From Bacteriovorax sp. Seq25_V (GTDB taxonomy: Bacteria; Bdellovibrionota; Bacteriovoracia; Bacteriovoracales; Bacteriovoracaceae): 60,407 nucleotides of DNA. Both the position numbers and the translations under genes were made by a program. The stretch covers positions 1 to 60,407 of the forward strand of contig NZ_AUNI01000003.1 in assembly GCF_000447795.1 (NCBI RefSeq), read 5' to 3'. Of this stretch, positions 30,438 to 43,006 are shown in pieces; position 1 is the stretch's first letter; each line of letters opens with the position of its first letter. The notes below the pieces were generated by a model, which was given only the letters and a program-made list of their open reading frames with translations, ran no database searches and was not told the origin of the DNA.

Positions 30438-31589
30438 TTAGTTCTCTGGATGCTCAGTAAAGAATTGAGACCTTGTCGTTGCTCTTTCCTTTTCAAATGA
30501 AAGCTTAATTTTTTCAACGGTCTCAATTAGCTCTTCATTGTCTGGGCTAATTTCAATGGCCTGTTCGAACTCAATAATGGCCTTCTCATAATTATGAACC
30601 ATCATGTATGCTCGTCCAGCATTGATATATGGAAATTCCTTGTTTTGATACTTAATTGCTTTCTTTGCTAATTCAAACCACTTTAAAGCTTCTTCTATAG
30701 ACCCTTCGTTAAGTAGGATTGAGCCAAGGTCATTGTAGGCAGGCCCAAAGTCTGGATCAAGCGAAATTGCTCTTAGGCATAAGCTCTTTGCTTTTTCTGG
30801 TTCTCCAAGAAGTGTATAGATCCAAGCAACTAGAGTATTAACTTCCGCTGTATCCTTAAAGCTCTTGGCCTTTAGGAAGTGTTCTAAGGCAAGTTCATGA
30901 TCCTTTTGGTATGCAGCTTTATGACCAAGAGATAGTGATTCTTCATATTTCTCTTCTCTTTTACTTTCAAGTCCTAGTAGGGAAGTTTTGTTGTCACTGA
31001 CAACGGCCTTTACTTTCTCAATATCAAGTTGAAAGAGAACCGGAGTTAAGTCTTCTTCCATCTCTTCTTCATCTTCAATATCTTGTCTTCCACCTTCAAG
31101 TAGAGAGAATCTTCCAAACTTCTTCACTTCAGTTACTTGCTTTTGAGTGAATGCTGTTTCTGTTTTTACTTCACGAATAAGTGAAGTTCTTGGGAGTTGA
31201 ACATCAATATTTGCAAACTTTGCGGTTAACTCATGAAGTTCTTTTCCATGCTTATAAATGCAATTAATAACAGCTGCCATATCGTTGATGATATTTGCTT
31301 TATTAGGTGATAATTTTAAAAATACTTCAACAAACAAGCATAGGTTTTTGAAGTTTGTTTTAGCTGTCTTAATATGCTCGCGATGAATTAATGAAGTATC
31401 GTTGTAATTAGTAGAGACAAATTTTGTTTTTACAATTTGCTCAAGTTCTTCTGTCAAATTACTAGCACATGTACGTATTTCCGCACGATGAAATGCACTC
31501 GATAGGTCGGTAATCGCGTGAAACAATCTGTCGATATAAGATTTCGCCTGAATTAGTTCACTTAGTAAAATTTCGTGGGCTGAGTTCAT
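30438..31589 (-). CDS. TPR-repeat protein
   Basis: The protein has 383 residues and no signal peptide. The N-terminal 150 residues are helical with Cys and Leu. There is an acidic linker near 175-185 (E-D-E-E-E-M-E-E-D), and then about four tetratricopeptide repeats (about 225-375), recognised by A-L-E-H-F-L-K-A, A-x-N-D-L-G-S-I-L-L-N-E-G and A-I-I-E-F-E-Q-A-I-E-I-S-P-D. TPRs mediate protein assembly. The neighbourhood (exported-protein gene upstream, NIF3 downstream) does not reveal the partner. Confidence 0.88.
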   Translation of the reverse strand: MNSAHEILLSELIQAKSYIDRLFHAITDLSSAFHRAEIRTCASNLTEELEQIVKTKFVSTNYNDTSLIHREHIKTAKTNFKNLCLFVEVFLKLSPNKANIINDMAAVINCIYKHGKELHELTAKFANIDVQLPRTSLIREVKTETAFTQKQVTEVKKFGRFSLLEGGRQDIEDEEEMEEDLTPVLFQLDIEKVKAVVSDNKTSLLGLESKREEKYEESLSLGHKAAYQKDHELALEHFLKAKSFKDTAEVNTLVAWIYTLLGEPEKAKSLCLRAISLDPDFGPAYNDLGSILLNEGSIEEALKWFELAKKAIKYQNKEFPYINAGRAYMMVHNYEKAIIEFEQAIEISPDNEELIETVEKIKLSFEKERATTRSQFFTEHPEN

Positions 31590-31661: not shown

Positions 31662-31781
31662 TTAATTCCCCGATATAGAAAAAATCCAAAGTGTGATTGC
31701 CATAAGAGTAAAGATCTCTAACCTAAGTAATATTAGATTCTTATGACTTAATGCAGCTATTTGAGTGTTATTTTGTCTCAT
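31662..31781 (-). CDS. 39-residue putative membrane peptide
   Basis: An ATG at 31781 is preceded by GGGAGG (31786-31791) four bases away, among the best ribosome sites in the window. The frame ends at TAA 31662-31664. The peptide begins M-R-Q-N-N-T-Q, then H-K-N, then a hydrophobic stretch from about residue 16 to 36 ending I-S-G-N, consistent with a single membrane helix. It sits in the otherwise empty 310-bp gap between the 833-residue exported protein and the TPR gene, same strand. There is no homology I recognise; translation is inferred from the ribosome site and hydrophobicity. Confidence 0.5.
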   Translation of the reverse strand: MRQNNTQIAALSHKNLILLRLEIFTLMAITLWIFSISGN

Positions 31782-31878
31782 CAGACCTCCCGTTCTCTAT
31801 ATAATACATAATCAATGCCAATTCTTTACAAGTTAAGTCATTGAAAGTATGAAGATTGGGTTGAGACAAAAGGAAGCC

Positions 31879-31895
31879 GGGGGCATAATACCCCC
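31879..31895 (-). terminator. Hairpin after the 833-residue protein gene
   Basis: A five-pair all-GC stem (31879-31883 with 31891-31895, loop of seven) lies directly after the stop codon at 31900; on the minus strand it is followed a few bases later by TTCCTTTT. It probably terminates or attenuates transcription. Confidence 0.6.
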
Positions 31896-31899
31896 AGAA

Positions 31900-34401
31900 T
31901 TATTCTTTATCGATTGTACTATATTTTAGAAGACGGTCATCTTTGTTAACTTCAGAGTACTTATTTGTAATCCTTTCAAAGATATTTCCTTTCTTTCCAC
32001 CAATTCCCTGAGATGCAAGATCACGGAAATTTATTACATTTCCAGCACCCTTGTTTTTACCAAACATTTTTGCAAATGGGTTACCAGTATCTTTCGAGTT
32101 GCTCGACTTCTTCGCTCCGCTTCCACCGCTGAAGCTTAGAGAACGACCACCACCTGTGTAGCTAATTTTTGGTGACTTATAACGTGAACCTGAGCTTGGG
32201 GCTGCACCGTTTGAGCCTGAGCCTCCACTTAGTCCCGCTGCTGATGCTCCACCTGCACCGCCTCCTCCAGCGCCACTTCCTACTTGAGCGCTAGTTACCT
32301 TCGCTTTTGCAGCCGGCCCGTCAACAAAACCTGATGCCTTATCAATTGAACCACCAACAGTTGAAGTCGCAATATCTTCTGGGTCGATAGCAGAGTTTGC
32401 GCCACCATTACCAACATCAATTGCACTTCCTTCTCCCGAACCTGCGTCTGCTGTGTTTGTTCCAATTGAACCATTTATGGAGATAGCACCACCGCCACCG
32501 ATATGAGTTGTAAATCCTGTTCCAAGACCATTACATTCAACCGCCATTGGATTAAGATCACAGAAGTTCATTAGTTCTTCTTGTGAAGCAAATCCTTCCG
32601 GTAGGTCAATTACATCTGCGTCTTCAACTTTATTAATAATACTTCCAAGAAGCTTCTTTTGTTTTCCAAGCATTGTTACCGCAACTTGTTCTTTCGCAAC
32701 TTCAACACCTGCTTCCGCTGCTATTGCATATGCCGTAGAGATAGTACTTTGGTTTTGAAGAATTCCGTGAGCTGTTGTTAAGTTAAATGAAAGCTGGCAT
32801 TCTTCTTCAGCACTGTTTACTTTTAAGGTTCCTGCTCCTTCTGTTACATATTCTGCTAGTGTTTTATTATCACCTTCGATCTTGATCGAAGCAATACTTC
32901 TTAAAAGCTCATCAACTTTCCCTGCGCCTGACTTATTTGTTGAACATAGGTCAATAGCATCTGCGTTTTGCGGCATTTGCTTTGCGAGGGAAACCATCAT
33001 TAAAAGTTTCGCTGCTTGAAGAGCTCGTCTTTCTTCTGCCATGTCTTGTAGCTTACCAATTCCATCCTTCTGCGCTTTAAGCGCTAGGGTAGATGTATCT
33101 TCCTCAGTTGGATTTGCATTCATCATTTTAAGTTGTTGATCCTGTTGGTAGCTTTGAGTTCTAAATTGTTGAACAGCATCGTTACCAGTTTGAACAATCT
33201 GAGCACCATTATACGCATTTAAAACATTCATACACTCATCATAGTCGATTGTTTCAGGGCCGACGTTAGAACATTTGATTCTGCCATCAAAAGATTTTTG
33301 TACTTGAGCGTTTGGCTTATAATCATCCTCTTTCCATTTCTTTTCACCGCTTGCGAAATTTTCACCTGCTGTAAATGCAAACATGGCACAAGCTCTCGCT
33401 TTCATCATTCCATACTTAATTAGTGTCGCGATGTTTTCTTTTTTTTCTTTGTATCGGGCACCCATTAGAATAACAACCATTTTTTGGAAATGATCCTTTG
33501 TCAGGTTTACCGGTTCAGACTTAGAAGAAAACATTTCATTCCACGGTTGATCAGCTGCAGCCTGATAAGCAGACTGACACTCTCTAAATTGCTTTGTCCC
33601 GTGAGCAATAATATCGTCGCTGTTGAGCTTATTTCCTTCTTTTTCCAGATTTTGTAGCATCTCTTCCATTGAGCCTTGAGGCGTTGCTGCTGTTCCAAGA
33701 TTACCTTTTGAAGATAGTTCAGCTTTTTGGCTATCAATACCTGACTTCAAGTCAGAACAATCGTGGACTCCTTTTTTCAAGCATTCATTGTATTGAGTTA
33801 CAACGTTGTCATAATTATAAATTTGTTCTTGAGAGGCCGGAACATATTTTCCTGTAATAGTGTCTTTGTAGCAAGCTTGACCTTGCTTCTGATTACAATT
33901 CTTTCCCTCAGCAAGAGTAAAGCGATTTGGAGCAACTGGTTTCACGCTCATCCCTTGTTGCGCTTGGTGAGCAGTACCAGTTCCATCGTAATAATTGTGA
34001 ATTACCGTTTGAGTCGCAGTACCTTCTTCAGGGGTCGTTTGGGACTTTTTTTCTATTTGAGGTATAATTTCATGTTCAATTTTATTATTTGCAGCGATTA
34101 ACTCTTCTTTTTGTTTGAGAGCATCTTTTAGATTTCTTCTATGTTGATCGAGCATGGTTCCGTTACCGCTAACACTACTCATTGTGCATAGACCATTATC
34201 AGCTAAAATTCCTTCGCACTGTTCTACTTTATTTTGATAATCCTCAATATCTGCTTCAAGATCACGAATTTGACTTGTGTTCTCAGCTAGGAAATGTCGA
34301 GCTTCTTCTATAGTTGATATTTCAACGGCCAATACACTAGCACTTTGACTAATACTTAATGTTAGTAATAAAAGTAGAGTATTTGCTGATATTAATTTCA
34401 T
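31900..34401 (-). CDS. Large exported protein, Gly-rich, with shared C-terminal motif
   Basis: The protein has 833 residues, with AGGAAG before ATG 34401. The signal peptide is cleaved near S-V-L-A (25). A coiled-coil (about 28-115) follows, then a helical middle with scattered Cys (C-E-G-I-L, C-T-M-S, and C-N-Q-K...C-Y-K-D), a hydrophobic Ala-rich helix around 480-500, a Gly/Ser/Ala-rich linker (about 640-775), and a C-terminal block N-I-F-E-R-I-T-N-K-Y...R-L-L (806-825). The linker-plus-tail layout recurs in the 650-residue protein encoded at 35690. No known family. Probably periplasmic or surface-associated. Confidence 0.82.
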   Translation of the reverse strand: MKLISANTLLLLLTLSISQSASVLAVEISTIEEARHFLAENTSQIRDLEADIEDYQNKVEQCEGILADNGLCTMSSVSGNGTMLDQHRRNLKDALKQKEELIAANNKIEHEIIPQIEKKSQTTPEEGTATQTVIHNYYDGTGTAHQAQQGMSVKPVAPNRFTLAEGKNCNQKQGQACYKDTITGKYVPASQEQIYNYDNVVTQYNECLKKGVHDCSDLKSGIDSQKAELSSKGNLGTAATPQGSMEEMLQNLEKEGNKLNSDDIIAHGTKQFRECQSAYQAAADQPWNEMFSSKSEPVNLTKDHFQKMVVILMGARYKEKKENIATLIKYGMMKARACAMFAFTAGENFASGEKKWKEDDYKPNAQVQKSFDGRIKCSNVGPETIDYDECMNVLNAYNGAQIVQTGNDAVQQFRTQSYQQDQQLKMMNANPTEEDTSTLALKAQKDGIGKLQDMAEERRALQAAKLLMMVSLAKQMPQNADAIDLCSTNKSGAGKVDELLRSIASIKIEGDNKTLAEYVTEGAGTLKVNSAEEECQLSFNLTTAHGILQNQSTISTAYAIAAEAGVEVAKEQVAVTMLGKQKKLLGSIINKVEDADVIDLPEGFASQEELMNFCDLNPMAVECNGLGTGFTTHIGGGGAISINGSIGTNTADAGSGEGSAIDVGNGGANSAIDPEDIATSTVGGSIDKASGFVDGPAAKAKVTSAQVGSGAGGGGAGGASAAGLSGGSGSNGAAPSSGSRYKSPKISYTGGGRSLSFSGGSGAKKSSNSKDTGNPFAKMFGKNKGAGNVINFRDLASQGIGGKKGNIFERITNKYSEVNKDDRLLKYSTIDKE

Positions 34402-34582
34402 GATTACTTCCTAAAAATTTGTTTCCTAGTACTATTATTCTAATACCTTCTCGGAATTTCCTACTTGAATCTTGATATAAATAGACTGATATTGTTTAAG
34501 TAGTTAATAATACATAGCGCACTGATTCTTTTCACCAGGCAATTATTTGTGGCAACATTGATAAAAATGAATTGGAGTATTA

Positions 34583-35017
34583 ATGGAAACAACTGTGCAT
34601 CGCTATGAAATCCTAATCAACGAAAAACACCTGGACTCTTTTGGCCATGTAAATAATGCTGTCTATCTTGAATTGTACGAAGAGGCCCGTTGGGACCTTA
34701 TAACAAAAGGTGGATGGGGATTAGATCGTATCCAGAGAGATAAGATTGGGCCAGTAATTACATCGCTAAAAATAGATTTTAAGCGTGAGTTAAAAAATAG
34801 AGAAGTTATCACGATTGAGACTTCCTTTGGTGGATTTCGAAATTCTAAAATATCATACCTTGAACAACGAATGCTTAAAGCTGATGGTGCCGTGGCAAAT
34901 ACTATGACAATGGAAGCGGGTCTTTTCGACCTTCGAGAAAGAAAGCTTGTTGATCCAAGTGATGAATGGATGAGAGCTCTTGGTGTTGAAGGTGATTGGC
35001 GAAATTATCTTAAATAA
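34583..35017 (+). CDS. Acyl-CoA thioesterase, 4HBT/YbgC-like
   Basis: The protein has 144 residues. L-D18-S-F-G-H-V-N-N-A-V-Y-L-E is the classical hot-dog thioesterase active site with catalytic Asp18. GGAG lies eight bases before ATG 34583. It hydrolyses an acyl-CoA of unknown chain. It is the only plus-strand gene between two minus-strand exported-protein genes, and its end overlaps the convergent VanY-like gene by 13 bp. Confidence 0.9.
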   Translation: METTVHRYEILINEKHLDSFGHVNNAVYLELYEEARWDLITKGGWGLDRIQRDKIGPVITSLKIDFKRELKNREVITIETSFGGFRNSKISYLEQRMLKADGAVANTMTMEAGLFDLRERKLVDPSDEWMRALGVEGDWRNYLK

Positions 35018-35700
35018 ATATTTTGAATATATTGCTGGAAAATTTTTTCTGCGTGATTTTTAACAATATCAAGCAGAAGAAATTCTTCTGCATTTTGTTG
35101 ATCAAGAAATTCTAAAAAATGTTCCAATGTAAATTCGTTGAAATATCTTTGTGCGACATCAAAATCACTAATATGCCACATTTCTGGCGCGACACCTTCT
35201 TGGTCAACTTCATATGGCCTAAAGAAACCGAGACCGTCTTCTTCTGCAATTATTCTATCGAAGAAGCATTTCATTTTATAAAACATAGCGCCTTCGCTAA
35301 ACTCACCAGGGATTAGCTCGATATGATAACCTTCTGGCCATGTGTTCTTGTCTACTACGTCGATATCCGTACCCCAATGGTGGCGGCTTGTTCCAGGAAG
35401 TGCCGACCAGCGTAAGATTGCAAAAACAACTTCCTCATCCGTTAGTAAATCATAATTTAGTGCAGTACCATTTGAATCAAGGAGAGTCTTTTCTCCACGG
35501 CATTTCTTATTCCATATTGAAAGTTGATTTTCAAAAGATCGAAAAGAGCTTAACACATAGAGATCAATGCCTTCTTGTTTTGCTCTTTCTTTGAGTTTTA
35601 AAAACTTTGGATAGGTTTCTTTATGAAAGAGGCGGCTAGTAATCTCATCTGTGATGAGATGGTCCTCTGTCATTCCGTGAATTTCATTTTTATTCTTCAT
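35005..35700 (-). CDS. VanY-like LAS metallopeptidase (D,D-carboxypeptidase family)
   Basis: From ATG 35700 the protein has 231 residues. Zinc site and catalytic residues: S105-R-H107-H-W-G-T-D112-I-D114 (the S-x-H-x-x-G-x-x-x-D motif with D in place of the usual A) and W175-H176. The preceding S-S-F-R-S-F-x-x-Q is also typical. Such enzymes trim peptidoglycan stem peptides. No signal peptide is visible, which is unexpected for a cell-wall enzyme. The start lies inside the last codons of the 650-residue exported-protein gene (11-nt overlap), so the two are translationally coupled. Confidence 0.9.
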   Translation of the reverse strand: MKNKNEIHGMTEDHLITDEITSRLFHKETYPKFLKLKERAKQEGIDLYVLSSFRSFENQLSIWNKKCRGEKTLLDSNGTALNYDLLTDEEVVFAILRWSALPGTSRHHWGTDIDVVDKNTWPEGYHIELIPGEFSEGAMFYKMKCFFDRIIAEEDGLGFFRPYEVDQEGVAPEMWHISDFDVAQRYFNEFTLEHFLEFLDQQNAEEFLLLDIVKNHAEKIFQQYIQNIYLR

Positions 35701-37642
35701 CAATAATTAACTTTTCACTTCCGTCATCAAAAAGTCTTCTTAGTCCTGATTGATTATACCTTTTAGAAATTACATTCCAAATAGAAGCACTCTTATCTGT
35801 ATTAATATCACTATTTTTATAATCATATTTGACTTGTCCTTCTTGCGCAACATCAGAAAAACTTAACACGCTACTTGTATTGTTTGATGAATCAAAATTC
35901 CAATTAGTTTTTGCCTTCGCCTTTGTACTTCCTCTTCTTTTTGAAGAGCTAAGCTTTGGTTGAATAGTTTTAACTGAAGCTGTTGCTGACTGTAGAGCTT
36001 CTGTATTTGGTCTAATTTCTGCCATTCTTAAAGAAGGTGGGTTGTAAAGTGCAACACGATTTCCTGATTCTGAAGCAGCACTCTTGGCCTTGCTCAAGAT
36101 ATCATTTGATATTTCATCAACTGACTTTCCTGTTTGTTTTTTTACCATAGGAGAAATTTTGGAAAGTAGGGCCGACTTCGCTTTCTTTGCAATAGCTGCT
36201 TGCGCATCAAGATCTGATTCAACCGCGCCTGAGCTTGAGTTCCCTTGATTAAGACTTTCAACACCACTTACTGCTGCTCCAATATTCATCGGGCCGAGGC
36301 CTGAAAATGCACCTGAAGGCATGTTAATTTTCATACAGGCATTTTCACCACTTTTATTTTTCATTCTCTTACACTGACATCCAGGATCAAATTTTCCATC
36401 AACATAAACACAACCTTTTGCTGCTGCAAGGCCTGATCCTCGAAGAGCATCTTCTGATTCTGCCCATAGGCTATCAGGTGTTTTCCATAGATTTTGGCAA
36501 GTCTGCGAGTTTGTGCGGTTAGGATTTTTTGCTCCCTTATCTGTATAGCAGTAACAATAAGGCTTAGAAAGATCCTCTCTTCCATCTGGGCAGTAGTTAG
36601 AAATACTTGCCATGTACTTCTCTCGTAAATCCTGAATCATTCCCACGTTACTTTCCGCTTCTTTTGCTTTCTTTGCCATTTCAGATGATAAGGCAAAAGA
36701 CTGAACTGCAGCTATACCACCTGCCGCAATAACTCCGATAGGGGTGTCAAGAAATTTGGATACATAACTAAGACCATCCCCAACACTTCCTGCAATTTTA
36801 GAGATGCCTGAAGGAGCAGGAGCTTCTCCTGCTGGTTGTGTTTCGGTAGCTTTTATTTGGTCAGTCGGCTTTGCGTCTGAGCCTGCTCCGGCTTCCCCGC
36901 CACTGTCAGCAGTTGTGTCGCTTTCTTCACTCTTACTACAAGGCTCAGTGAACGCTCCACCTTTTTGATATGCTTCGTAAACGGCCATCGCAACAGAAGC
37001 CGTGTAACCAAGGCCTAACATCTGATAGAGTTTCTTATTGTCTTTTGCATACTTGCCAAGATAATTTTGTTCTTTCTCAAGATAATCAAATGCTGTTAGT
37101 TGAGCATCTTTCATTGTATCTTTTTCCGATGCTTCTTTATTAAACTCATCGGCCATCTTTTTTACATCTTTTTCTACATCATCCTCAAAAGCGACGTTCT
37201 TCACAAATCCTGCGAGTGAAGTTGCCCCAAAGATTTTTGTAGACCAACAGCTGCTCTTCCAAGAGCTTGCGCCAAAGACTTGCCAAACAGCAAGAGAGGC
37301 AAAGAGACCCGACTCAATTGTTTGAAGAGTTTTCCCTTTTGTAACATCTGAGCTATTAACATCATCTCCATACTTATTTCTTGTTTTCTTTTCCTGATCT
37401 TTTGCCGCTTTTTCATAACATGAAGCTCTTTGCTCTGAAGCAAGTTCTTCACATGCTTTATATTCTGCCTGATTTTTTAATGTTGATTCTGTAGAAACGC
37501 ATCTATTTAATGCGGTATCGAAGCGCTGACCCTGCGGACAATCTGTAGAAGAGCCCTCATCTGCGCCAACTTGAAAAGATATTAGGAGCAGGTTAAGTAC
37601 CAAAGATATTTGTAAATACTTACGAATTTTATTATGCTTCAT
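35690..37642 (-). CDS. Large exported Cys-containing protein with shared C-terminal motif
   Basis: The protein has 650 residues. AAGGA precedes ATG 37642 and the signal peptide is cleaved near Q-V-G-A (27). Next comes C-P-Q-G-Q-R-F-D-x-x-L-N-R-C-V, a small disulfide loop as in secreted Cys-rich repeats, then a charged helical region (55-100) and possible membrane or amphipathic helices near 108-145 and 305-325. A Cys cluster follows (about 350-435, with Y-C-Y-C and C-Q-C-K-R), then an Ala/Ser-rich part, and a C-terminal S-I-W-N-V-I-S-K-R-Y...R-R-L-F (620-638). The tail matches the 833-residue protein. Unknown family; exported. Coupled to the VanY-like gene. Confidence 0.82.
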   Translation of the reverse strand: MKHNKIRKYLQISLVLNLLLISFQVGADEGSSTDCPQGQRFDTALNRCVSTESTLKNQAEYKACEELASEQRASCYEKAAKDQEKKTRNKYGDDVNSSDVTKGKTLQTIESGLFASLAVWQVFGASSWKSSCWSTKIFGATSLAGFVKNVAFEDDVEKDVKKMADEFNKEASEKDTMKDAQLTAFDYLEKEQNYLGKYAKDNKKLYQMLGLGYTASVAMAVYEAYQKGGAFTEPCSKSEESDTTADSGGEAGAGSDAKPTDQIKATETQPAGEAPAPSGISKIAGSVGDGLSYVSKFLDTPIGVIAAGGIAAVQSFALSSEMAKKAKEAESNVGMIQDLREKYMASISNYCPDGREDLSKPYCYCYTDKGAKNPNRTNSQTCQNLWKTPDSLWAESEDALRGSGLAAAKGCVYVDGKFDPGCQCKRMKNKSGENACMKINMPSGAFSGLGPMNIGAAVSGVESLNQGNSSSGAVESDLDAQAAIAKKAKSALLSKISPMVKKQTGKSVDEISNDILSKAKSAASESGNRVALYNPPSLRMAEIRPNTEALQSATASVKTIQPKLSSSKRRGSTKAKAKTNWNFDSSNNTSSVLSFSDVAQEGQVKYDYKNSDINTDKSASIWNVISKRYNQSGLRRLFDDGSEKLIIDEE

Positions 37643-37745
37643 ACTTTTTCCTTAAAATTCTATTCCTCTTCTAGTATAAGAGCTAAAGTGGCGTCGGGTC
37701 TATGGCCGCTATTTGTACAAATTGTATTAAATAATCGGAATTATT

Positions 37746-38339
37746 ATGTTTTTACTTAAGTTTTTGCGAAATATTACCCTCTCGATCATTGTATTTGGTT
37801 GCCTGAATATTGTGGCAAGAGATTACCAAGACTTACAAGTAGGGGATGTCCTACTTCTTGATCTCGACTGCTACTCATGTCAGAGAATTGAGGATGAGAC
37901 TTTTGGTCCTTACTCTCATTCAGGAATAGTTGTTGAGGTTAATGGGGAGCTGGTTATCGCTCAGGCCTTATCGACAGTGCATCACTTAAGAGTGTCAGCA
38001 TTTCTTAAGTTCTCTCCAAAGAAAGCACTACACTTACGACCGAAGAAAATGACAAATTCGAAGCAAAAAAATCTTAGTCATAATTATATGAATAAGTTTT
38101 ATGGAGCTGAATTTGATCATGACTTCTTATGGGATAATGATTCATTTTATTGTTCTGAATTTTTATTTAAGTTGCTAGACTCTGTAAACGTTTTGAGTGA
38201 CTTAAAAGCGCTTCCTATGAACTTTGAAAGAAATTATGATTTTTGGAATATTTATTTTGATCACGGTGTCCCACAAGGGGAGATTGGAATTTCTCCAAAT
38301 GACTTCTATAGAAGTTCAGATTTTGAAATTTTAAATTAA
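37746..38339 (+). CDS. YiiX/YebB-like papain-fold hydrolase (NlpC/P60-related)
   Basis: The protein has 197 residues. It has an N-terminal signal (about 1-24). D-L-Q-V-G-D-V-L-L-L-D-L is the usual start of the fold, followed by S-H58-S-G-I-V with the catalytic His, and later F-Y-C136-S-E-F with the catalytic Cys. His before Cys is the circularly permuted order of the YiiX/DUF830 group. Such enzymes cleave peptidoglycan peptides or acyl bonds. It is divergent from the 650-residue exported protein (about 100 bp between starts). Confidence 0.87.
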   Translation: MFLLKFLRNITLSIIVFGCLNIVARDYQDLQVGDVLLLDLDCYSCQRIEDETFGPYSHSGIVVEVNGELVIAQALSTVHHLRVSAFLKFSPKKALHLRPKKMTNSKQKNLSHNYMNKFYGAEFDHDFLWDNDSFYCSEFLFKLLDSVNVLSDLKALPMNFERNYDFWNIYFDHGVPQGEIGISPNDFYRSSDFEILN

Positions 38340-39151
38340 AATGTAAGAGGGGAAAGCTTCCCCTCTATCTCAACTTTCTTGGATTTATCTTTTAGACAAT
38401 TTAAAAAATCATTCTGTGAATTAAAGTTACAAATTTTAAGGGCCTGATTAAGCGCTTTGGCCACTGCATATGAAGAGCCTGTAAAAAGATCATTTTCACC
38501 TTTAAAAGGAAAGAAATAGCTTACATGCTCTTGGTACTTATTTTTCTTATCGACATAGGCCGTATCATATTTCGTTTTTGGATAGTAATCACTAATAATT
38601 AATATATTCTTATTACTTTTTACTAGTTCTTGTGGGAATAGTTTATGTTCCTCTCTAATCCACTGATCTTGAACACCACTTGCTACAAATACAATATTTT
38701 TGAGATCTATTTTTTGGAGTGAAATACTCTTAAGAAAAGGCAAGCCTGCAGCAATCAGAAAGATATCTGTTCTCTTTAGTCGTTCAGTAGAAAATGCATT
38801 TTGCCAGTAAATCTCTTTCTGTCTTTTATCTGCATCAAAAACAATTAGTGGCTCAATTATTATTTCTTGTTCAACGTTCTTAATAAGAGTCTCTAGTACT
38901 CTTTGACCATGGAATCTTCTGTCGCGGGTGTTCTCTTTAGCACAGTCAAGCTTTAAAGATTTAGTCAGATCCGTCACATCTAAAATGGTTATGTTTTTAT
39001 GCGGTTTAAGCCTTTGTGGGCAAAAGCCTGTGTCGATGACTGTGATATGTACTTTGGAATAAATTGGTTTTGAAAAAAGAAGAGCGAGTACTACAAAGAG
39101 TACTCGCTTAATTAATTTATTTTTGTAATCTGTATGGTTTATGGTGTCCAT
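38336..39151 (-). CDS. Degenerate small subtilase-like (S8) exported protein
   Basis: The protein has 271 residues with an N-terminal signal (hydrophobic 17-31). The subtilisin triad is recognisable in order: V-I-D40-T-G, H81-G-Q-R-V, and G-S-S227-Y-A-V-A-K-A. The oxyanion Asn expected in the A-G-N segment is absent: the corresponding strand reads V-A-S-G-V (156-160). Only about 230 mature residues remain against about 275 or more in typical S8 domains, and no propeptide is evident. It may be a weak protease or a peptide-binding pseudo-enzyme. ATG 39151 lies 35 nt inside the end of the 1107-residue protein gene, indicating coupling. Confidence 0.78.
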   Translation of the reverse strand: MDTINHTDYKNKLIKRVLFVVLALLFSKPIYSKVHITVIDTGFCPQRLKPHKNITILDVTDLTKSLKLDCAKENTRDRRFHGQRVLETLIKNVEQEIIIEPLIVFDADKRQKEIYWQNAFSTERLKRTDIFLIAAGLPFLKSISLQKIDLKNIVFVASGVQDQWIREEHKLFPQELVKSNKNILIISDYYPKTKYDTAYVDKKNKYQEHVSYFFPFKGENDLFTGSSYAVAKALNQALKICNFNSQNDFLNCLKDKSKKVEIEGKLSPLTF

Positions 39152-42100
39152 TTTTACTTGTTAGTTTCCCATGTAGACCTTTATCAAACTTCTTAAGGTT
39201 ACTCATTTTACCATCGATTTCACTTAGTGGACCAACGATTTTCTTAAATAACTTTTTGAATGTAAATAGTCTCTTTGTAACTGCAGATCTCATCTCTTTT
39301 TCAAATGGTTTGTGTTCCTCTAAACCTTCTTTTAAAGAGTGGTATAAGTTATGAGCTGCTAGGTATAAACCAACATTCGACTTATCCGCTTGTTTTCCAA
39401 GATTGCTATTGATCTTATTATGCAATAAATTTTTATCATCAGCAACTAAGTCCGCAATATCCTTGTCTCCAAAAATACCGATTGATTCATCGTACATTTT
39501 GTTAACTTGGAATACCTCGTCGAAAGCTCTAAGCGCTACAGCTTCCATCTTCTTCTTCGTGACATCACTTGAGAAGTAGTTATTACCATCAACAGTTGCT
39601 TTAACATCTGCGATCATATTATCATTTGATTTTGCAAGTGTTTTTGCAACTTCTAGTTCACCTTTGTAGTTTCTCTCGTCTGCTTGAATAACTGCAATGT
39701 GTGACTTTAAGTTCTTGTTCATTCTATTGTTTGCAAAAAGCACTTTTGACTTTTCAGAGTTTCCTGCAAAGTGGAATTCTAACTGATTCGCATCTTTGAA
39801 GATTGTCTGATGTCTCTTGAATCTTTCTAGTCCGTTTTGGTCAAGTGTTACAATCGCAAGTTCTTCTGAGTTTCTTATCATGTTTTCGATTGTTTCTGTC
39901 ACTTTTCCCATAGTGTTAACAAGTAGTGCTTTTCCTTTGAGTCCATTTTGTAAAACTTGATCGTTTGCTGTTCTTACAGTTGTATCAAGAATACCAACTT
40001 TGTCTAAACCACCATTTTCAGAAAGCAAGTCTTGTATTTCTCTTAGTGAGTCTGAAGCATCAGCAACAATGATTACATCTTTTGAGGCATCAAGGGCCTC
40101 TTTTGCTACTACTGAAAGTGCTTGACCTAGCTCACCAACAATTACACCATCTTTTTCAAGGTATGCAGTAATATTAATTGGCTTATAAGCTTGATCTCTA
40201 TCTTTTACTGAGATTACTGCATCTGTAAGAGTCTTTGAATCTGTTAGATTTCTAATATCGGCAAACTCTTTTGAGATCACACCGTCAGTGTCAGAGTGAA
40301 TAACAACTTTTACATTGTCATAAACTTTCTTAGAATTGTTTTCAACTTGAACTCTTAGACCGATTGATTTTGATCTAATAAGCTCTCCAGAAAGTCCAAG
40401 TCTTGACATTGCTATTGGGTATCTTACTTGACCGTTTGTTATGTTATCACTCTCAAGAATTCCATCTTTAGAAGATGTAAAGTGTCTCGCTTCAATTTCA
40501 TTTGCAGCACTAGCTGTAATGATTACTTGGTCATTATCAATACTTCCAAGTTTAGAAGAAACGAGTCCTTTAGCAACAGCTGTGATTGTTGCTGTTGTTT
40601 GCCCTGGGATTGTTCCTAGGTTATATCCTTGTCCATTTATAAATACTTTTACATCTGTTTTTTCTGCGGCACCAAAGTTTGATATTTTGATATCATAAAC
40701 CTTGTTTTCTCCAGGAGCAAAAATTCCATCTTCCGAACCAACTCCATTAATACCAACCTCTCTAACTTTGATTGAATCAACTTTTAATACCGAAGACTTA
40801 GTGTAAACTTCGCTAACTTTTGTAAACTCAGAAGCACGGTTTTGTTCTTTTATTGTAGGGTAGTTTGCATTGTAAGTAGCCTCACTCGCTTCGGCCCTTG
40901 AATCTTGCTCAATTCTTGAGTACTCCGCTTGGTAACTCGTTGCTCTTGAGTTTTCGAAAGATACTTTATAATCTGTTGAGTTAGTGTCTGGAGAGTTAAA
41001 TGTTTGTTCTTCAGCTCTAGCTCTTGCAGCATTCTTATGTCCAGCGTAGTCTCTATTAAATGCATAGCTCTTAGCTTCGTTGAATGTTTGCTGTCTTAGT
41101 TGCGGATAGTCTCTATCTGCAAAGTTTCTGAACATTATTTCATACTGACGTGAGTAGTAGTCACTATATACTTTTTCAATTACATCATTGAAATGTCTTC
41201 TATGCGTTCTGTTATATGAAAATTCATAACCATCTTTGTAAGCTTCTTTTAAGATTGCTTCTTTATAAGAGCCTCTGTCGTTATATCTATTTCCTCTTCC
41301 TCTGCTATCTGGATAAGTTGGAGTTGTTCTTCCAAAAGCACCTGAAAACGCTCCTCCAAGTAGAACGTCTTTTAATTTCATTGATTCATATTTTGTAATT
41401 GCCTGAGAAGCCCCAAGGTTCTTTCCATCATTTGATCCATTTTGAAGCGCTCTGTTCATCCCTTCTTTGCTACCTCTTGCGGCACCTACAGATGAAGCAT
41501 CAGATGCTTGAGCTTGAGATACACCAGTAGTTGTTCCGTCAGTTGAACCTCTTCTTCTATTTCCTGAGATCGTACCTTCTCTGCTTCCGTCAATACTACC
41601 TTGATCAAGAGCATCTCTTGCACCTACTGAATCTCCTTCGGCCTGTGCTTGAGCACGTACTCTTTGTCTTCCTTCTTTTGTTCCATCTTGTTCACCATCA
41701 AGAGAACCATCCCTTGTTCCATAGAGAGAACCAAGTTCTTGTGCTAGGTCAGTTGCATCTTCAATTGCATTGTCTTGCCCTCTGCTACTACCTGCGTGGT
41801 TAGTTCTAAGAATTTGAATAACAATTTTTCTCTTATATTCGTTTCTTCTCTCTCTTGATTTTGCATGCGCTTCTGAAAGTCTTGCTGCGATTTCTTCAAG
41901 CTTCTTTGTCTCAACCTTTACCTGTGCAATTTTTTCATTTGATACTTTATTGGCCTGTTCATTAGAAGCCTTGATTGATTGGATTTCTGTAAGACGTGCT
42001 TCAATTGTATTAACTTCAGCAACTACTTTATCAAGCTCAACTTGAAGAGCTGCTTTCTTTGACTCATCTGAAGTTAGTTGGATTTGCTTCTTTAAAGATT

Positions 42101-42440
42101 GAACTCTAAGGCCAATCTTAAACTTTTCCTTGAGCTTTAAATTAGATTCTTCATCAAGTTGCTTATTTTGTGCCTGACGAGTTTGAATCGCTTTTTCCTC
42201 ATCAGCAATTATTTTTCTAAATGGTTTTACATTTTCATTAGCTTCATCAGCTCTTTTTTTCGTTTCTTCAACTGAGTTTTCAAGCTTTTCAAGATTTGGA
42301 TCTTGGCTAAATTTGAATGAAGGGTTTCCTCTGTAATATTCCTTCCAATTTTCAACGATATTTCTATCTTGTTCAAAGTTTTTTGCAAGTGCTAGCGGTG
42401 ACATTGCTAAGAGTGGAAAAAGTAGAAGTGCTGTTTTCAT
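39117..42440 (-). CDS. Giant exported coiled-coil/GX3-repeat/CARDB-like protein
   Basis: The protein has 1107 residues, with AAGGA before ATG 42440. The signal peptide is cleaved after A-L-A (19). Coiled-coil occupies 47-205. Residues 237-343 have Gly, or sometimes Ala/Val, at every fourth position (G-x-x-x repeated, e.g. G-T-R-D-G-S-L-D-G), forming a continuous small-residue stripe. A second helical, Tyr/Arg/Ala-rich part follows (about 390-540), then beta domains from about 555 with D-G-I-F-A-P-G-E-N and I-S-N-F-G, as in CARDB adhesion-type modules, then an alpha/beta region (about 780-930) and a basic C-terminus. Probably a long periplasmic or surface fibre-like protein. Unknown family; coupled to the subtilase-like gene. 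Confidence 0.83.
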   Translation of the reverse strand: MKTALLLFPLLAMSPLALAKNFEQDRNIVENWKEYYRGNPSFKFSQDPNLEKLENSVEETKKRADEANENVKPFRKIIADEEKAIQTRQAQNKQLDEESNLKLKEKFKIGLRVQSLKKQIQLTSDESKKAALQVELDKVVAEVNTIEARLTEIQSIKASNEQANKVSNEKIAQVKVETKKLEEIAARLSEAHAKSRERRNEYKRKIVIQILRTNHAGSSRGQDNAIEDATDLAQELGSLYGTRDGSLDGEQDGTKEGRQRVRAQAQAEGDSVGARDALDQGSIDGSREGTISGNRRRGSTDGTTTGVSQAQASDASSVGAARGSKEGMNRALQNGSNDGKNLGASQAITKYESMKLKDVLLGGAFSGAFGRTTPTYPDSRGRGNRYNDRGSYKEAILKEAYKDGYEFSYNRTHRRHFNDVIEKVYSDYYSRQYEIMFRNFADRDYPQLRQQTFNEAKSYAFNRDYAGHKNAARARAEEQTFNSPDTNSTDYKVSFENSRATSYQAEYSRIEQDSRAEASEATYNANYPTIKEQNRASEFTKVSEVYTKSSVLKVDSIKVREVGINGVGSEDGIFAPGENKVYDIKISNFGAAEKTDVKVFINGQGYNLGTIPGQTTATITAVAKGLVSSKLGSIDNDQVIITASAANEIEARHFTSSKDGILESDNITNGQVRYPIAMSRLGLSGELIRSKSIGLRVQVENNSKKVYDNVKVVIHSDTDGVISKEFADIRNLTDSKTLTDAVISVKDRDQAYKPINITAYLEKDGVIVGELGQALSVVAKEALDASKDVIIVADASDSLREIQDLLSENGGLDKVGILDTTVRTANDQVLQNGLKGKALLVNTMGKVTETIENMIRNSEELAIVTLDQNGLERFKRHQTIFKDANQLEFHFAGNSEKSKVLFANNRMNKNLKSHIAVIQADERNYKGELEVAKTLAKSNDNMIADVKATVDGNNYFSSDVTKKKMEAVALRAFDEVFQVNKMYDESIGIFGDKDIADLVADDKNLLHNKINSNLGKQADKSNVGLYLAAHNLYHSLKEGLEEHKPFEKEMRSAVTKRLFTFKKLFKKIVGPLSEIDGKMSNLKKFDKGLHGKLTSKNGHHKPYRLQK

Positions 42441-42644: not shown

Positions 42645-42669
42645 TAAAAAAAGGTCCTTAATAGGACCT
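42645..42669 (-). terminator. Intrinsic terminator of the 112-residue protein gene
   Basis: On the minus strand AGGTCC and GGACCT form a six-pair stem with a TATTAA loop, followed by seven T. The stem overlaps the TAG stop codon at 42668. Confidence 0.85.
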
Positions 42670-43006
42670 AATCTTCATCTTGTGGCATTTTAGCGACTGT
42701 CTTATTCATCTTTACATCTTTCTTCTCGATGAAGAAGTATCTGATGGCATTAACTCCAATCTCTTCGCCTGATTTTAGTTGGATAGCAGCTTCTTTAAGA
42801 ATATCTTCCGCATTACCTCTATATTTATGGGCCTTTGCAAACTCTGATAGGTCATAAAATTCACCATCATATGTTTCAATGGCCATTGCTACTTCTTTTG
42901 CCTTGTCCATCACCTCTGGATCAATTCTCTTGATAGAAGTTTTCGCTTGAGTATTAAATGCAAATACCATTGTTGTTAAAGCGATTAATTTTACTAATGT
43001 TCTCAT
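42668..43006 (-). CDS. Small hypothetical exported protein
   Basis: The protein has 112 residues. GGGAG precedes ATG 43006 and the signal peptide is cleaved near N-T-Q-A (21). The mature 90 residues are helical and charged, without Cys, and end in an acidic Q-D-E-D. Nothing recognisable. It is a single-gene unit with its own terminator. The 227-bp stretch between it and the 1107-residue protein gene contains no other gene that I can support. Confidence 0.78.
   Translation of the reverse strand: MRTLVKLIALTTMVFAFNTQAKTSIKRIDPEVMDKAKEVAMAIETYDGEFYDLSEFAKAHKYRGNAEDILKEAAIQLKSGEEIGVNAIRYFFIEKKDVKMNKTVAKMPQDED

Follow-up and report, generated by a model that had tools for sequence, protein, structure and literature searches.

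The C-terminal domains of the type IX secretion system (T9SS) are non-transmembrane beta folds of about 70 to 80 residues carried by many large exported proteins, and PBP5 of Escherichia coli is an exported protein with a C-terminal amphipathic helix as its membrane anchor. The MYXO-CTERM/myxosortase, PEP-CTERM/exosortase, GlyGly-CTERM/rhombosortase and LPXTG/sortase systems are each characterized by a short tag found on many unrelated Sec-exported proteins (PMC11980579, PMC3237569), and such sortase-type tags are tripartite, consisting of a signature, a transmembrane helix and a basic cytoplasmic tail (PMC11980579). Here, we describe a C-terminal module of about 30 residues, hereafter the tag, shared by two large exported proteins of 650 and 833 residues which are encoded in a gene cluster at positions 31662 to 42440 of a 60,407-nucleotide stretch of Bacteriovorax sp. 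Seq25_V DNA (the window, over whose whole length positions are counted). Six further tagged proteins of the same genome are encoded outside this cluster. The most economical reading, which we consider somewhat probable, is that the module serves as a C-terminal tag for sorting or docking, of the many-to-one kind, and is recognized in trans by one partner in the envelope.

Compared with the sortase-type tags, the module is likewise a homologous short C-terminal tag, borne by unrelated exported carriers of one lineage whose genes are scattered, in an apparent many-to-one relation. It differs from them in having neither a terminal transmembrane helix nor a basic tail, in being followed by up to 34 residues and in having no NCBIfam model. 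With type IX secretion (for its cargo, see PMC7468200) it has in common that a non-transmembrane C-terminal module sits on large exported proteins, whereas this tag is short and probably helical. The Pfam T9SS domain was detected neither in the whole tagged proteins nor in their tags, and a search for SprA was negative in 38 relatives, though equally so in the control genomes. Two other candidates were dropped, namely an outer-membrane beta-signal, since the tag is predicted to be helical and not a strand, and a type I secretion signal, since the tagged proteins have N-terminal signals.

The Cys-containing 833-residue protein is encoded at 31900..34401 on the minus strand and extends from a signal-like N-terminus (MKLISANTLLLLLTLSISQSASVLA) to the tag (NIFERITNKYSEVNKDDRLLKY), with the module located at 31909..32037 (minus strand; E 3e-20 with the profile of its own family and 5e-11 with a combined profile). 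The 650-residue protein (35690..37642, minus strand) contains hydrophobic helices and a Cys-rich region and is the founder of body superfamily I; its tag, DINTDKSASIWNVISKRYNQSGLRRLF, lies at 35723..35827 (minus strand; E 1.7e-14). By single-sequence search, homologues of the 833-residue protein were found in 34 of 78 relatives, those of the 650-residue protein being present in 43. The bodies of the two sets of homologues are unlike, whereas their tails are alike and follow approximately the pattern DI-x(3-6)-S-[IL]-[FW]-xx-[IV]-[ST]-x-R-Y-xx-[ST]-[GA]-xx-[RK]-[LF]. Two profiles, built from alignment A1 (650-type tails and one paralogue, 22 rows) and alignment A2 (solely 833-type tails, 20 rows), were run separately against the window's own genome, and both retrieved the same proteins of 690, 584, 593, 609 and 1219 residues on other contigs. 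A protein of 1391 residues was listed by A1 alone (E 0.008) and missed by A2; the 833-residue protein was missed by A1, and the 650-residue protein was found by A2 (E 0.011). With the combined profile all eight proteins score 6.6e-9 or better and nothing else is recovered at 0.05; as this profile includes the eight sequences, the separate searches are the fairer test. The genome thus totals eight tagged proteins at seven loci, 584 to 1391 residues long, each with a signal-like N-terminus and with the tail at the very C-terminus.

When a hidden Markov model of the tail was run over the 1010 open reading frames (ORFs) of the loci fetched for comparison (designated L below), 98 proteins matched; in all 98 the match ends 0 to 34 residues before the stop, and none is internal. 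According to a simple hydropathy test, 96 of the 98 have a signal-like (hydrophobic) N-terminus, compared with 196 of 392 background ORFs, and the same number, 96, contain at least seven cysteines. In neither family is another segment of this length as well conserved as the tag (63% against a body mean of 28% for the 650 type and 48% against 24% for the 833 type). Small polar residues are more frequent in the 100 positions that precede the tail (0.62 versus 0.54), and a GG motif shared upstream of it is enriched about ninefold. The module comprises a flexible linker rich in G/S/K/N and, after it, a short and probably helical segment whose core is S-[IL]-[FW]-xx-[IV]-[ST]-x-R-Y and whose end is basic or aromatic. 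One tagged protein has 2047 residues (L207:6155-12298), and one of the 98 holds 131 cysteines.

Such a segment could also be an amphipathic helix that attaches by itself to a membrane from the periplasmic side, as in PBP5. This would suit its hydrophobic I, F/W, I/V and Y positions, the K/R residues towards its end and the helix predicted, with low confidence, for it. The calculated hydrophobic moment is low (0.13 to 0.41), however, the mean hydrophobicity is negative, and the near-invariant R-Y and S/T residues point to sequence-specific recognition by a protein; the tag differs from the PBP5 anchor in just this low moment and in the near-invariant R-Y, and we deem direct membrane binding quite improbable. 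No convincing match to the tag was obtained in Pfam, NCBIfam or the PDB. The comparison of 42 tag sequences with NCBIfam gave no curated tag model and one unrelated match (5.5e-3), a Foldseek comparison of the 650-family model with known structures returned no match better than E 1.9, and a description of the tail was not found in the open-access literature.

The bodies that carry the tag were compared profile to profile (hhalign) after removal of the tail. The 650, 690, 593 and 609 types form one superfamily (97 to 99% to the 650 type). For the 833, 1219 and 1391 types, instead, no relationship to this superfamily or among themselves emerged (at most 10%), with the exception of a 76% match between the 833 and 593 types which is confined to the linker; several further single tagged proteins also lie outside the 650 superfamily. 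By these profile comparisons, at least four unrelated kinds of body bear the same tail, because three types are related neither to the 650 superfamily nor mutually. As is the case for sorting tags in general, therefore, several unrelated exported proteins carry, to judge from their sequences, the same tag in a strictly C-terminal position.

The main rival explanation holds that the tail is an oligomerization or intramolecular folding element of an old superfamily, which was shuffled onto a few other proteins and has no part in sorting. That most bodies belong to one superfamily agrees with it, as does the likeness of the 833 and 593 types, which reaches about 40 to 60 residues upstream of the tag, as it would in a shuffled domain, and includes a shared NPFAxxFxKK ... 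[VI][LI]xF ... A stretch. If the tail were an intramolecular element, however, its sequence should vary together with that of the body, while here four or more unrelated bodies retain the same tail, which always closes the protein behind a flexible linker and is its best conserved stretch. On this evidence we judge a shuffled folding element to be rather unlikely.

The tag has a marked lineage restriction. Among 292 genomes of the phylum scanned, it was found in 93 of the 100 genomes of one family, in at least 1 to 12 copies each (per-genome copy counts are lower bounds), and in 12 of the 192 genomes outside the family, where all matches are weak (best E 1e-5); 46 unrelated outgroup genomes had no tag at E<=1e-3. 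We name the tag-bearing family Bacteriovoracaceae because of the tag copies in two Halobacteriovorax metagenome-assembled genomes (13 and 5) and in two other Bacteriovoracaceae or Bdellovibrionales (4 and 11), together with the scan of LAS neighbours. The tag of the 650- and 833-residue proteins is thus not private to their cluster but widespread within a single bacterial family, most of whose members are predatory. Seven family genomes, belonging to four genera, lack the tag. In a weakly supported NIF3 tree with six tag-less genomes, one or two changes explain the absence (0 of 500 shuffles were as low), which, as far as such a tree allows, is consistent with one gain of the tag or with one or two losses. 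An empty site was not found in the tag-less genomes, where NIF3 adjoins 2-oxoglutarate dehydrogenase genes, a different context.

If the module is a sorting or docking tag, tagged proteins would be exported across the inner membrane by Sec, after which the free C-terminal segment would dock into a single common receptor of the envelope. This receptor would sort, anchor or assemble all tagged proteins at one place, so that one machine would serve many cargo proteins. The outcome, in a presumed envelope compartment, may be surface display, outer-membrane attachment or the assembly of a complex. Most tagged genes are solitary among housekeeping genes, and they are scattered with no constant neighbour, as would be expected because a receptor of this kind acts in trans. 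It is conceivable, though on balance we would not expect it, that these are the traces of a new sorting system of Bacteriovoracaceae in which a non-transmembrane tag addresses large Cys-rich proteins to an envelope machine, for delivery to the surface or to a shared assembly, possibly in connection with predation. As a sorting or docking signal, the tag would put into one class exported proteins that are among the largest unannotated ones in a family of predatory bacteria, would imply a receptor or a secretion machine yet to be discovered and would provide a sequence signature for finding envelope proteins of these bacteria.

Several results weigh against a sorting or docking role. Most tagged bodies are homologous, so that common descent accounts for part of the sharing. 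Hydrophobic segments also occur in the interior of about every second tagged protein, making the topology of these proteins uncertain. The tag is weakly amphipathic by calculation, and its helix is a low-confidence prediction, the AlphaFold model of the 650-residue protein being poor (predicted local distance difference test [pLDDT] 52). Finally, no candidate receptor or processing enzyme was detected in the neighbourhoods of the tagged genes.

These neighbourhoods bear on a proposal made earlier from the DNA of this cluster (the sequence-only reading), in which the repeated pairing of an exported protein with a hydrolase was taken to suggest one envelope or surface system. In the genome under study a hydrolase gene follows three of the eight tagged genes, namely a LAS peptidase after the 650-residue protein, a trypsin-like protease after the 690-residue protein (L123:9940-10761) and a subtilase after the 1391-residue protein (L143:6468-7907); a phospholipase A1 (L139:7372-8253) lies near a fourth tagged gene, encoding the 584-residue protein. 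The pairing is hence genuine, though partial: it recurs at some tagged paralogues, those of 690 and 1391 residues, whereas most tagged genes stand alone. Directly after the 593-type tagged protein, many genera encode a small protein that starts with a CxxC-type sequence (LPILLFDQECSLC...; L140:6229-6609, with counterparts in L190, L191, L194, L197, L203, L208, L209, L211 and L212), which is possibly a thiol-disulfide partner of the Cys-rich tagged proteins. In two genera an exported protein of 840 residues, belonging to no Pfam family, diverges from the 1219-type tagged protein (L142:10217-12739 and L178:315-2849).

Within the cluster itself, all ORFs named by the sequence-only reading were found in place. 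The 833-, 650- and 1107-residue proteins have the signal-like N-termini attributed to them, and scans of Pfam and NCBIfam assigned them to no family above the cut-off; a PHROGs search gave nothing useful. In the fetched loci, and with genes denoted by product length or family, the order 1107 - 271 - C92 (opposite strand) - 650 - LAS - thioesterase (opposite strand) - 833 - TPR - NIF3 recurs whole or largely (e.g., L084, L089, L094 and L100), an arrangement kept in many Bacteriovoracaceae genera, well above chance. The LAS gene follows the 650 gene in 18 fetched loci, the thioesterase gene borders the 833 gene in 14, and the C92 gene diverges from the 650 gene in eight. The 1107 gene is close to the 650 or 833 gene in the window and in six other loci, and nine other loci of the same family have neither on the fetched stretch; a profile search detected full-length members of the 1107 family in 13 of 36 family genomes. 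The 650 and 833 genes also occur apart, for example in L088 and L087 of a single genome.

In the earlier proposal the six genes make up a single dedicated machine of the envelope or surface, perhaps for prey contact or wall remodelling. The order conserved over many genera lends support to this, together with the coiled-coil and Ig-like build of the 1107-residue protein, which would be appropriate for a rod at the surface or in the periplasm. Against it stand the patchy occurrence of the 1107 gene, often not close to the 650 and 833 genes, the separate occurrence of the latter two, neighbours (LAS, C92, thioesterase, TPR and NIF3) which are of ordinary families, and tagged relatives scattered elsewhere, so that we regard a single dedicated machine as very doubtful. 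Synteny thus bore the proposal out in part, inasmuch as the order is kept, while in about half of their loci the 1107 and 271 genes are outside the stretch fetched around 650 and 833, the 1107-residue protein has no tag and the tag of the other two is not specific to the cluster. Because the 1107 and 271 genes behave as a separate, patchy unit of their own, separable from 650 and 833, the cluster splits into at least two modules, and the idea of one envelope system comprising all three large proteins is not supported. Neither did the genes scatter outright independently in relatives, nor did each large protein clearly match a well-known unrelated family.

The LAS/M15 (VanY) peptidase of 232 residues (35005..35700, or 35703 from a TTG start; minus strand; PF02557, E 6e-23), a conserved neighbour of the 650 gene, was correctly identified beforehand, and its overlap with that gene is the reported 11 nucleotides if translation starts at the ATG at 35700 (14 nucleotides from the TTG at 35703). 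The peptidase starts with MMKNKNEIHGMTEDHL and has no signal-like N-terminus; its residues S106, H108, G111, D115 and W176-H177 are invariant, and the VanY zinc-site motifs SxHxxGxxxD and WH are present. Members of the family are common in Gammaproteobacteria and in Gemmatimonadota, and the scan via LAS yielded chiefly unrelated carriers. The identity proposed for the permuted papain-like protein of the C92 (YiiX) type was likewise confirmed (197 residues; 37746..38339, plus strand; PF05708, E 4e-10); it diverges from the 650 gene. The gene for a 4HBT acyl-CoA thioesterase-like protein (34583..35017, plus strand) lies between the LAS and 833 genes, within the conserved order, and a TPR protein (30438..31589, minus strand) is encoded downstream of 833 in a conserved position. 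Between them follows, as described before, an ORF for a membrane mini-protein of 39 residues (31662..31781, minus strand), with counterparts of 42 and 44 residues in two congeners, both with strong ribosome sites. The window has just this ORF between the 833 and TPR genes, where other genera encode an exported protein of 313 to 333 residues (EVDSFxxRY...) of no Pfam family (L087:4209-5150, with counterparts in L089, L094, L098, L103 and L113).

The subtilase-like protein of 271 residues (38336..39151, minus strand) is paired with the 1107 gene, which it overlaps by 35 nucleotides, in agreement with the sequence-only reading. That reading had also called it degenerate; this appears to overstate the case, because the presumed catalytic residues D40, H81 and S227 are invariant in 12 homologues and Peptidase_S8 is weakly matched by three of the 12 (best 5e-4), and the protein is, from these comparisons, divergent rather than clearly dead. 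The window protein itself has no Pfam S8 match, and its comparison with one real subtilase was weak. The neighbouring enzymes accordingly belong to, or resemble, the LAS/M15, C92 YiiX-like and S8 families, and none of these neighbours bears the tag.

For the 1107-residue exported protein (39117..42440, minus strand), a separable module that lacks the shared C-terminal tag, the AlphaFold model of the family is good (pLDDT 85), unlike that of the 650-residue protein. It displays a long coiled coil with polar GxxxG-type repeats, two Ig-like barrels (residues 550 to 781), a Rossmann-like domain and a helical end. Among the structure matches listed there are solely generic Ig-like barrels, covering residues 550 to 781 and similar to the barrels in transglutaminases and GH2 enzymes. 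With its subtilase-like partner, the protein would seem to form an exported pair of rod and protease in its own right, as predicted from the model. A frame of 1244 residues at G000:C20:116957-118534 has several overlapping matches to the coiled-coil part of the 1107 family and is perhaps a second rod-like exported protein. A protein of 112 residues, belonging to no family, is encoded upstream of the 1107 gene (42668-43006 of the window, minus strand) and is kept in L084, L085, L086 and L090.

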